Shown here: positions 10,213-14,802 of the stretch, one piece after another
Numbering within the stretch: position 1 is the stretch's first letter
Layout of the letters: every line of letters begins with the position of its first letter
Origin: Candidatus Atribacteria bacterium
Lineage (GTDB): Bacteria; Atribacterota; Phoenicimicrobiia; Phoenicimicrobiales; Stramentimicrobiaceae
Direction: 5' to 3'
NCBI GenBank assembly: GCA_018402425.1
Contig: JAGYIZ010000001.1
Span: forward strand, 1-64,000
DNA: 64,000 bases
Made by a program: the position numbers and the translations under genes
The notes under the pieces: model-generated
Told to the model about the DNA's origin: nothing
What the model saw: the letters and a program-made list of their open reading frames with translations, nothing else
Database searches by the model: none

Positions 10213-11079
10213 TTAATTACCCTGCTTAATGGATTTAAAAATGTCTTTGGAAAAAGCAGGAAGCATAAACGCAGCACGATGAATATCAGTATGGTAATAT
10301 TTTAAATCAGGCAACTGATTTGCTCTTTCGGACACTAAATGGTCAAGAGGATGATATTTCTTAGAACAAAAACTAAAACCAATCATACCACTGGGATAAG
10401 TCGGAACCATAGTATAATAATAATAAGGTATAGGAAATATTTTTTTTATGAATCGAAAAGTAGATTTAATAAAATCAGTATGCCAAAAAAGGGATTCTAA
10501 CTGGGTAACTGCAATTCCATCTTCTTTTAAAGCCCGAAAGAGAAAATGGTAAAATTGCTCGGTAAACAGGGTAGTCCCCGGACCAATTGGATCGGAAGAA
10601 TCAACAATAATTATATCATATTGATTTATCCTATTTTCCAAAAATTTTGCACCGTCCTCAAAAAAGGTATGCACTTTCTTATGATTAAAACTGTTAGCCA
10701 GTTTTGGAAAATATTCACGGCATATTTCAATAACCATTTTATCAATTTCACATACATCCACTCTATTTACTGAGGAATGTTTAATAATCTCACGAACAGT
10801 TCCACCGTCTCCTCCACCAATCACTAAAATATCTAGCGGCAAAGGATGAACACAAAGAGGCACATGGGCAATCATCTCGTGATATCCGGCCTCATCAGCC
10901 TCGGTGAGCATAATAATACCATCATTAATTAATACCTTGCCAAAAGCAGGGGTCTCAACTACACAAATTTCCTGAAAAGAGGAAATAACTTTTTTCAGGA
11001 CGTTATCACCTTTTATCTGTAGATAACGTCCTTTTTCTTTTTCGTATTGATCTCCAAACCACAATTCTAACTTACTCAA
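10213..11079 (-). CDS. speE: Polyamine aminopropyltransferase (spermidine synthase)
   Basis: SpeE transfers the aminopropyl group of decarboxylated AdoMet to putrescine or a related diamine. The 288 residues include the N-terminal beta domain (LWFGDQYEKEKGRYLQIKG), the AdoMet-binding VIGGGDGGTVRE, DVCEIDKMVIE and the substrate-contacting VDSSDPIGPG with the conserved Asp. The start is TTG at 11079 with AAGGAAG eight bases upstream. It follows the two speD-type genes by five bases, forming one operon. Confidence 0.95.
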   Translation of the reverse strand: MSKLELWFGDQYEKEKGRYLQIKGDNVLKKVISSFQEICVVETPAFGKVLINDGIIMLTEADEAGYHEMIAHVPLCVHPLPLDILVIGGGDGGTVREIIKHSSVNRVDVCEIDKMVIEICREYFPKLANSFNHKKVHTFFEDGAKFLENRINQYDIIIVDSSDPIGPGTTLFTEQFYHFLFRALKEDGIAVTQLESLFWHTDFIKSTFRFIKKIFPIPYYYYTMVPTYPSGMIGFSFCSKKYHPLDHLVSERANQLPDLKYYHTDIHRAAFMLPAFSKDIFKSIKQGN

Positions 11080-11084
11080 GATGA

Positions 11085-11477
11085 TTACTTCCTTAAGGTA
11101 TAATAAATTCTAATGTCTTTTGCTTTAAAATATTTTTGTGTAAAATCAGCAGCTAGCTGTGGATCATAATATTTACAGCTAAAAATATCAATATAGGCAT
11201 GGTTTGTTAAATTGGCAAAATGACCTGATATCAAAGATGTTTCAATCAATTGAATCATAGAATATCCTGCTACTCTTTCATCTTCACCAAAATTAACTAC
11301 CTGGGTATCACCAAATTTTTTCATTTCTATCAACTGACATAACTCATCTACATAACGCTTGATAGCTTCCGCATCCCGTATTAAATCAGGATTACAATGA
11401 TGCAAATCAATACTGGTAAGTAAACCCCATATATTATCTTTGGTATATTTTTCTTTTAATTCTTTTAACTTTTCCAT
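11085..11477 (-). CDS. Divergent AdoMet decarboxylase paralogue (SpeD-like)
   Basis: This 130-residue protein sits between speD and speE, one base after speD and five before speE. It aligns with class 1b AdoMet decarboxylase over the active-site region. Ser81, His86 and Cys101 (in SLISGHFANL and YIDIFSCKYYD) have exactly the spacing of Ser63, His68 and Cys83 in the neighbouring SpeD. The Glu before the pyruvoyl-forming Ser is Thr80 here, and the Trp-Pro-Glu after the His is lost. It may be a regulatory, prozyme-like partner of SpeD, a decarboxylase for another amine precursor, or an aminopropylation accessory. The relationship is my alignment by eye; the function is inferred. Confidence 0.7.
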   Translation of the reverse strand: MEKLKELKEKYTKDNIWGLLTSIDLHHCNPDLIRDAEAIKRYVDELCQLIEMKKFGDTQVVNFGEDERVAGYSMIQLIETSLISGHFANLTNHAYIDIFSCKYYDPQLAADFTQKYFKAKDIRIYYTLRK

Positions 11478-11478
11478 T

Positions 11479-11877
11479 TTAAAAAACCCCCACTTTTGGA
11501 GAAACTTTTCTATTTATTTTTATCGGAAAACGAATATTTCCTCTTCTCATTTCTGTTACTGATACAGTCTTAACATTCAGCTCTTTTTCAATATAATCCA
11601 GTGCCTTCTGACTATCAACACTATGTCCGCAAGTAAAAATATCCAAAGCAGCATAGCCATATTCCGGCCAGGTGTGAATGGTAAAATGGGATTCAGCAAT
11701 AATAATAACACCACTGACTCCCTGTGGGGCAAATTGATGAAAAGATGTTTTTAGAGCAGTGGCTCCGGAAATACGAACTGCCTCTTCCAACACCATTTCC
11801 AATTTACCAAGATCATTCAGTTTCTCTGAATCACATTCATACAATTCTACCAAAAGATGATTTCCTAAATAATCCAT
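11479..11877 (-). CDS. speD: S-adenosylmethionine decarboxylase proenzyme
   Basis: This 132-residue class 1b enzyme (also called SpeH) self-cleaves between Glu62 and Ser63 in AESHFTIHTWPE to form its pyruvoyl cofactor, then decarboxylates AdoMet for polyamine synthesis. Catalytic His68 and Cys83 are present and match Thermotoga maritima numbering. It is first in the speD-speD'-speE operon; AGAGGG precedes the ATG. No arginine, ornithine or agmatine enzyme is nearby, so putrescine comes from elsewhere. Confidence 0.95.
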   Translation of the reverse strand: MDYLGNHLLVELYECDSEKLNDLGKLEMVLEEAVRISGATALKTSFHQFAPQGVSGVIIIAESHFTIHTWPEYGYAALDIFTCGHSVDSQKALDYIEKELNVKTVSVTEMRRGNIRFPIKINRKVSPKVGVF

Positions 11878-12037: not shown

Positions 12038-12739
12038 TTAATCAACCAAATCAAGGGCTAATTCAACCATTTGGTTAAAGGTTTTTTCTCTTTCTTCTGA
12101 ACTGGTTTCTTCGCCTGAAATTAAGCTATCACTGACAGTCAAAATAGAAAGTGCCATTACTTTGAATTTTGCTGCTATTGTATACAGTGCTGCTGTCTCC
12201 ATTTCTACAGCAAGCGCACCATAATTAGCCCAGAGCTGCCAATGATTAGGATCATCATGGTAAAACATATCGGTTGTCAATACACTGCCGATTTTTACAG
12301 CTAAATCTCTTTGTTCGGCAATAGATACAGCTTTTCTTATTAGCTGATAGCAGGCAGTTGGTGCATAGTCCTTCCCATTAAAGCGAATCTTGTTTATACT
12401 GGAATCAGTGGATGCACTCATGGCTAATATAATATCACGAACTTTCACATCAGGTTGGAGGGAGCCACAACTGCCAATCCGAATTAGATTACCTACTTGA
12501 TATTGATTAATTAATTCATGTAAATAAATAGAAATCGAAGGTATGCCCATCCCGGTCCCCTGAACAGATACTAATTTTCCCTGATAACGTCCTGTAAAAC
12601 CATACATCCCCCTCACCCTGTTATAGCAATACACTTCTTCCAAATAATTTTCAGCAATATATTTTGCTCTCATAGGGTCTCCCGGCAATAATACAGTTGG
12701 AGCTATATCTCCTGCCTCAGCACCAATATGTATACTCAT
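12038..12739 (-). CDS. deoD: Purine nucleoside phosphorylase DeoD-type
   Basis: DeoD splits purine (deoxy)nucleosides with phosphate. The 233-residue protein has the hexameric-type pattern: [22 protein letters not shown] at the start (shown here in part), [25 protein letters not shown], and VEMETAALY with the ribose-contacting Glu. I start at the ATG at 12739 because AGGAGG lies seven bases upstream and the product then has the family's usual N terminus. A further in-frame start at 12829 would add 30 unconserved residues. Confidence 0.95.
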
Positions 12740-12983
12740 TTTAACCTCCTGATAAAATATATTAACAGATTTAGAAATATCTTTTTTAAAAATAATCTCA
12801 TTGATGAACCTATATAGAAAAATTACCATGTTTAACCTGTGATTTCAATTTATTTTTACTACATCTACATATTTTGTTTTTGAGACATCTGATAATGTAC
12901 CTCTTTATTCATAGTGACATTTTATCAAGATAATTAATAAGGTGACATTATCATAAAATATTAACAATATTTTCGAAATATCC

Positions 12984-13180: not shown

Positions 13181-14362
13181 ATGTATCTTTTAACAATTTT
13201 TACAATTTTAATACTTCTACTGGGATTTTTAGAATATTATTTTCACCAAAAAAGAATTAACAAGATTCCTATTCGTATTCATGTTAACGGAACCCGGGGG
13301 AAATCGACTACCGTAAGACTGATTGCTGCCAGCCTAAGGGAAGCAGGATATCGGGTTTTAGCTAAAACAACTGGAACATCTCCTAGAATTATTCTGGAAA
13401 ACGGACAAGAAGAAACAATTAAACGTAAAGGTGCTGCCAATATTATTGAGCAAAAATATTTCATTAAGAAAGCAGTGGTAAAAAATTGTAATGCCATAGT
13501 TATAGAATGTATGGCAGTTCACCCGGAAAACCAATGGGTAAGTGAGCATCAGTTAGTCAAATCCACAATTGGAGTAATTACCAATGTCCGAGAAGATCAC
13601 CAGGATGTTTATGGTCCTTCTTTAAAAGATTGTGCTGAAGCCCTAAAGTTAACCATCCCCAAAAAAGGTTATCTGGTAACCGCTGAAAAGAAATTTTTTT
13701 CTCTATTTCAACAACAAGCTAAAAAATTAAAAACACAATGTCTTCTAGCTGATCCGAATAAAATGATTCAAGATGAGAATGTAAAATCAGAAAACTTTTA
13801 TTTTAGAGACAATGTAGCCATTACCCTTCAAATAGGGAACCTCTTAGGTATTAATAAAAAAACTATTCTGCATGGTATTTCCAAAGCAACTCCTGATCCG
13901 GGAGCTTTGACTATCTACCAATTGGAGCAAGATAAAAAGCAATTATGGTTTATCAACGCATTTGCCGCCAATGACAGGGAATCAATACTAATAATCTGGG
14001 ATAAAATCAATCAATTATTACCAAAAAAAATGGATGATTCCCAAAGAATAGCAATCATAAATCATCGTGATGACCGTATTACCAGGACTCTTCAATTTGA
14101 TAAAATATTAACTCGAGACCTTCGTTTTGATTATTTAATGTTAGCCGGGCCTACCAGTAGATTGAGTGAGAGAAAATTACTTCAATTTGGTTATCCCTCT
14201 AAACAAATTTATCGAATCAATAAGAGAGAAACGGCATCTGATGTAGTAAAAAAAATATTCAGGCTAAGCAAAAAAAATATTATTGTATACGGGTTAGGCA
14301 ATACTCGTGGTTTTGGTATGGAAATAATGGAATACCTAAAAGAAAAGGGAGACAAGATATGA
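13181..14362 (+). CDS. pgsB: PgsB/CapB-type poly-gamma-glutamate synthase ATPase subunit
   Basis: PgsB-family proteins are Mur-ligase-like amide ligases that polymerise glutamate. The 393 residues begin with a membrane helix (about 1-20), followed by the nucleotide loop VNGTRGKSTT near residue 37, NVREDHQDVYG and a C-terminal VYGLGNTRGFG. It overlaps pgsC by four bases (ATGA). The PgsA and PgsE partners are absent in this window. Other PgsBC-like pairs make different products, so the polymer is uncertain. Confidence 0.88.
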   Translation: MYLLTIFTILILLLGFLEYYFHQKRINKIPIRIHVNGTRGKSTTVRLIAASLREAGYRVLAKTTGTSPRIILENGQEETIKRKGAANIIEQKYFIKKAVVKNCNAIVIECMAVHPENQWVSEHQLVKSTIGVITNVREDHQDVYGPSLKDCAEALKLTIPKKGYLVTAEKKFFSLFQQQAKKLKTQCLLADPNKMIQDENVKSENFYFRDNVAITLQIGNLLGINKKTILHGISKATPDPGALTIYQLEQDKKQLWFINAFAANDRESILIIWDKINQLLPKKMDDSQRIAIINHRDDRITRTLQFDKILTRDLRFDYLMLAGPTSRLSERKLLQFGYPSKQIYRINKRETASDVVKKIFRLSKKNIIVYGLGNTRGFGMEIMEYLKEKGDKI

Positions 14363-14802
14363 TTTATCAAGCAATCGGAATCGGTATTGCAATAGGCTTT
14401 CTATTCTATGAATTAGTTGGATTATCACCCGGAGGAATTGTAGTACCTGGTTACATTGCCTTATTTATAGATCAGCCTTTGCGTATCATGGTTACCGTTG
14501 CTATTGCCATTCTAACCTACTATATTGTTTCTTTTTTATCCAACTATCTCATACTTTATGGTAAAAGACGGTTTCTAAGTATGATACTTATTAGCTTTCT
14601 GGTTAAATGGATTGTAGAAAGTTTTATTTTTCAATTCCCTGTTACTAATATTGAAATACAAAGCATTGGCTATATCATTCCTGGCTTATTGGCTAATGAG
14701 ATGAAGAGACAAGGAATTATCCCAACCTTACTAGCAATGTCTATTGTAGCAATACTGGTTCGTCTAATTTCTTTATTTATTTCTTTATTAGTTATATATT
14801 AA
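14359..14802 (+). CDS. pgsC: PgsC/CapC-type poly-gamma-glutamate synthase membrane subunit
   Basis: A 147-residue, strongly hydrophobic protein with about five membrane segments and the PgsC pattern GLSPGGIVVPGYIALF near residue 24. It is translationally coupled to pgsB by a four-base overlap and is the expected membrane partner for the ATPase. Length matches the family. Confidence 0.88.
   Translation: MIYQAIGIGIAIGFLFYELVGLSPGGIVVPGYIALFIDQPLRIMVTVAIAILTYYIVSFLSNYLILYGKRRFLSMILISFLVKWIVESFIFQFPVTNIEIQSIGYIIPGLLANEMKRQGIIPTLLAMSIVAILVRLISLFISLLVIY

Follow-up and report, generated by a model that had tools for sequence, protein, structure and literature searches.

A predicted ornithine-to-spermidine operon from an Atribacterota bacterium, with a probable SpeDC-type ornithine decarboxylase gene between speD and speE

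SpeDC is a pyruvoyl-dependent L-ornithine decarboxylase homologous to the AdoMet decarboxylase (AdoMetDC) SpeD. It was described by Li, Liang, Phillips and Michael (2023, J Biol Chem 299:105005; PMC10407285), who searched for genomes that contain speD without speE or that encode two SpeD homologues and found that one class of the additional homologues has this activity. The family is estimated to have at least 1,000 members, and four residues in the central region, glutamine (Gln), threonine (Thr), phenylalanine (Phe) and tyrosine (Tyr), are diagnostic for it (PMC10407285). Genes for SpeDC are found in clusters with speD and speE, one of them in Ca. Atribacteria. In particular, the SpeD2 protein of Ca. 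Atribacteria CG08_land_8_20_14_0_20_33_29 (PIU25646; 127 aa), whose gene clusters with speE and another speD, decarboxylates ornithine with a kcat/Km of 820 M-1 s-1, and its activity on arginine and lysine is undetectable (PMC10407285). SpeD-SpeDC fusions with two active sites are present in Desulfotignum phosphitoxidans and Ca. Omnitrophica OLB16 (PMC10407285). Moreover, SpeD has given rise to the SpeDA arginine decarboxylases, which are little diverged from it and likewise cluster with polyamine genes (PMC10407285).

The locus analysed here lies in a window of 64,000 nucleotides (positions 1 to 64,000 of contig JAGYIZ010000001.1) from a Candidatus Atribacteria genome that is 78.6% complete. 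Three consecutive genes on the minus strand encode an AdoMetDC proenzyme of class 1b (speD, 11479..11877; 132 aa), a predicted pyruvoyl-dependent L-ornithine decarboxylase (speDC, 11085..11477; 130 aa) and spermidine synthase, a polyamine aminopropyltransferase (speE, 10213..11079; 288 aa, TTG start). SpeE scores 307.8 bits with TIGR00417 (cut-off 249.55) and 325.7 bits with PRK00811 (cut-off 260). A single base (11478) separates speD from speDC and five bases (11080-11084) separate speDC from speE, so that the order and gaps reported in a preliminary description of this DNA agree with the coordinates; in related genomes, too, the frames of speD and speDC meet within a few bases. No Rfam families were found near the operon, and promoter and terminator scans at the operon gave signals not clearly above those of shuffled sequences.

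A deoD-type purine-nucleoside phosphorylase gene (12038..12829, minus strand; PRK05819, 364.6 bits, cut-off 230) precedes speD on this strand, with 160 bases between the two; it is treated here as a neighbour and not as a member of the operon, and its product might aid methylthioadenosine recycling. Further along the window, at 13181-14802 on the plus strand, a gene for a Mur-ligase-like protein is followed, with a 4-base overlap, by one for a CapC protein, a pair that looks like the PgsB/PgsC poly-gamma-glutamate capsule genes.

Both SpeD and SpeDC belong to the Pfam family AdoMet_dc (PF02675; cut-off 25 bits), with scores of 145.5 and 84 bits, respectively. The AdoMetDC equivalog TIGR03330 (cut-off 75.65 bits) accepts SpeD at 150.9 bits, whereas SpeDC reaches 36.5 bits, and this sub-cut-off score together with a Thr-Ser site places SpeDC outside the SpeD equivalog. 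Compared directly by BLASTP, the two proteins are 21% identical (E = 1e-5). When 75 homologues are aligned, Ser81, His86 and Cys101 of SpeDC coincide with the catalytic Ser63, His68 and Cys83 of SpeD, confirming that the spacing is the same in both neighbours. The three residues are invariant in a 40-row alignment (A1) and are retained across the whole SpeDC group wherever the sequence covers those positions. The catalytic region reads IETSLISGHFANLTNHAYIDIFSC in SpeDC versus IAESHFTIHTWPEYGYAALDIFTC in SpeD, which, with Ser63, His68, Cys83 and the ESHFTIHTWPE motif intact, has a full active site. In SpeDC, Thr-Ser replaces Glu-Ser, a Glu is present one place further upstream, and His-Thr-Trp-Pro-Glu is gone; the alignment thus bears out the earlier observation that the paralogue has lost the cleavage Glu and Trp-Pro-Glu.

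The residues that correspond to the published SpeDC signature are Gln76, Thr80, Phe87 and Tyr95 (positions -5, -1, +6 and +14 relative to the catalytic Ser), matched to the four published residues by their order and exclusivity; a Tyr at +24 is also conserved. They are present in 35, 34, 35 and 34 of 35 SpeDC homologues, and 33 SpeDs have other residues at all four positions. The Thr-Ser found instead of Glu-Ser would, as read from the alignment, be the Thr of the SpeDC signature. The absence of Trp-Pro-Glu plausibly belongs to a change in the substrate site.

The single-chain AlphaFold2 model of SpeDC (pLDDT 93.8) has the AdoMetDC fold. Its best PDB matches are Thermotoga maritima AdoMetDC (rmsd 1.5, E 8e-11), and it superposes on the T. 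maritima and Aquifex enzymes at 1.5-1.8 angstrom. A PDB sequence search with the single protein returned nothing useful, and a profile search recovered the AdoMetDCs. The class 1b enzyme of T. maritima (PDB 1tlu, 1tmi, 1vr7; rmsd 1.5-1.8) shares with SpeDC the fold and the positions of the catalytic residues, its Ser63, His68 and Cys83 being matched by Ser81, His86 and Cys101. However, the two proteins are only ~19% identical, T. maritima AdoMetDC has Glu-Ser and Trp-Pro-Glu where SpeDC has Thr-Ser and lacks Trp-Pro-Glu, and the predicted substrate of SpeDC differs from AdoMet.

The SpeDC of the window falls into a single ancient clade. In a tree built from 70 homologues, whose rows exclude the assayed SpeDC sequences (PIU25646, BAJ63311), all 32 SpeDC-type copies form one group (support 100/100) far from SpeD. 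Among named organisms, the nearest relatives of the window are Ca. Atribacteria. It is encoded at 18 loci of the genome collection (57-81% identity), spanning Atribacterota, Spirochaetota, Desulfobacterales, Nitrospirota, Ca. Marinimicrobia and a PVC bacterium. SpeDC is under strong purifying selection, with a dN/dS of 0.03-0.10 against its relatives in a nucleotide comparison; on these values a pseudogene was rejected and the match to SpeD is taken to go well past what chance would give. A recent duplication inside the genome was rejected because the branches between the groups are very long and the homologue is common to several phyla (Spirochaetota, Nitrospirota, Thermodesulfobacteriota and others). 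A phage origin was also discarded: the phage collection yielded only a protein of Sinorhizobium phage phiN3 (28%), which is reported to be a bona fide AdoMetDC (PNAS 2023 paper). Among the homologues, one from Ca. Marinimicrobia (L015) is placed on a long branch and has Glu-Ser-Ser for Glu-Thr-Ser and Phe for Tyr; its substrate may differ from that of the others. At five loci of Desulfobacterales and related MAGs (L007, L008 and L010-L012), speDC has no adjoining speD or speE. In L007 the gene immediately downstream of it encodes a MobA-like nucleotidyltransferase, and similar-looking genes follow it at the other four.

Canonical arginine and ornithine decarboxylases and the enzymes that convert agmatine to putrescine were not detected in the genome. 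Its sole PF02784 enzyme is the diaminopimelate decarboxylase LysA (461 bits, cut-off 297.9), whose gene neighbours one that reads as dapF. Searches of this 78.6% complete genome for arginase/agmatinase, agmatine deiminase and PvlArgDC found none of them, and OKR_DC_1 gave only short sub-threshold fragments. Relatives with the same gene pair and completeness of 100% (G042), 98% (G045) and 96% (G047) agree, each having at most one PF02784 match and no agmatine enzymes. The genome does have ornithine metabolism: it contains two OTCace-family genes, and one of the two reads as that of ornithine carbamoyltransferase.

Across the phylum, the adjacent speD/speDC pair occurs in 17 of 50 genomes, all of them in two families (f1 and f2). 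Only three of these 17 (G027, G036 and G039) have two PF02784 matches: in G027 and G036 the matches are partial and cover different positions of the profile, and in G039 they are two LysA-like proteins. In the sister families f3-f6, most genomes are without the pair and have a second PF02784 enzyme, a PLP decarboxylase. The three shorter enzymes of this kind that were examined (382-403 aa) all fall short of the lysA cut-off; they are probably ornithine decarboxylases or related enzymes. One genome of a further family (G026, f7) has the pyruvoyl arginine decarboxylase PvlArgDC and an arginase-family enzyme in place of the pair. Given this distribution, the putrescine routes of the phylum look alternative to one another and exclusive by family, which is expected if SpeDC supplies putrescine. 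In families f3, f4 and f6, the SpeD copy beside speE (L039-L048) is without the catalytic Cys (DIFLQA, DVFLGA or DVFVGS for DIFTCG) but retains both Glu-Ser and His-Thr-Trp-Pro-Glu. Often these genomes also contain a second, unlinked SpeD copy (L053, L055, L056, L063, L064), in which Ser/His/Cys are intact and Thr-Phe-Pro replaces Thr-Trp-Pro. Either copy may be the AdoMetDC, which makes this arrangement odder than that of the operon.

The best explanation, to which we assign a probability of about 0.94, is that the locus is a complete ornithine-to-spermidine operon in which the SpeD paralogue is SpeDC and makes putrescine from L-ornithine. We infer its self-cleavage, substrate and product from the assayed relatives. 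SpeDC would cleave itself between Thr80 and Ser81, and Ser81 would become the pyruvoyl group that enables the decarboxylation of L-ornithine to putrescine. By the same chemistry, SpeD would convert AdoMet to decarboxylated AdoMet, from which SpeE would move the aminopropyl group to putrescine, yielding spermidine. The entire path would thus be encoded in one operon and would proceed without a PLP enzyme.

Three roles had been considered for the paralogue in the preliminary description, and it is the decarboxylase with a new substrate that the SpeDC signature and the assayed relatives favour. A prozyme-like activator, that is, a dead paralogue that binds and activates SpeD as in trypanosomes, would fit the fixed adjacency to speD in the 17 genomes, the loss of Glu-Ser and Trp-Pro-Glu, and the dead SpeDC-like domain of the published V. 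vadensis fusion. The Trypanosoma brucei prozyme is also an AdoMetDC paralogue and a distant fold match (PDB 5tvm, the AdoMetDC/prozyme complex). However, it is a dead eukaryotic protein, whereas SpeDC keeps the triad, as does its whole group, and sits in a family whose assayed members are active ornithine decarboxylases alone; the adjacent SpeD, for its part, keeps a full active site. In 18 other genomes, obtained by a separate search, speD adjoins speDC in 5, lies elsewhere in 8 and went undetected in 5, the last being possibly incomplete MAGs of unstated completeness with no other PF02675 protein. SpeDC relatives that are unlinked to speD, or whose genomes showed none, tend to argue against an obligate prozyme, and we regard this role as exceedingly improbable. 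The retained triad, the unlinked and apparently speD-free occurrences and the published single-protein activity led us to reject both the prozyme and the fixed heteromer.

An obligate heteromer of SpeD and SpeDC, both active, draws on the tight linkage, with frames that nearly touch in related genomes, and on the natural fusions with two active sites, which, like the operon, bring the two activities together immediately ahead of speE. The fusions are single chains, however, and the window contains two adjacent genes. Moreover, singleton and separately purified SpeDC proteins are active alone, and a fusion retains ornithine decarboxylase activity with S79A and AdoMetDC activity with S229A (PMC10407285). 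The shared pathway suffices to explain the linkage, and with SpeDC also found unlinked to speD or where none was detected, such an assembly is very unlikely. It is also very unlikely, if slightly less remote, that the separate chains of Atribacterota form a mixed dimer coupling the supply of putrescine to that of decarboxylated AdoMet; nothing in the present data calls for one, and if true, it would be the equivalent, in two genes, of the fused SpeD-SpeDC proteins, the proposed ancestors of the eukaryotic enzyme. As to the substrate, an arginine decarboxylase of the SpeDA type would share with SpeDC its origin from SpeD and its clustering with polyamine genes. However, no agmatinase or agmatine deiminase is found in the genome (78.6% complete), SpeDA is little diverged from SpeD whereas the window protein bears the SpeDC signature, and the assayed Atribacteria relative is inactive on arginine (PMC10407285). 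Arginine is thus an extremely doubtful substrate.

The preliminary description knew of no bacterial operon with this arrangement; speD-speDC-speE clusters, including one from Ca. Atribacteria, had in fact been published (PMC10407285). The published SpeDC and the protein studied here share the signature, their size (127 and 130 aa), a gene cluster that includes speD and speE, and the phylum; both genomes are without another detected ornithine or arginine decarboxylase, and no difference between the two was found in these features. As the enzyme family and the gene order were published in 2023, and one of the assayed enzymes came from this phylum, the find is an ordinary one. Automatic naming lags behind, since NCBIfam gives SpeDC only a sub-threshold AdoMetDC match. 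The operon is a further clear example in which SpeDC takes the place of PLP-dependent enzymes in making putrescine.
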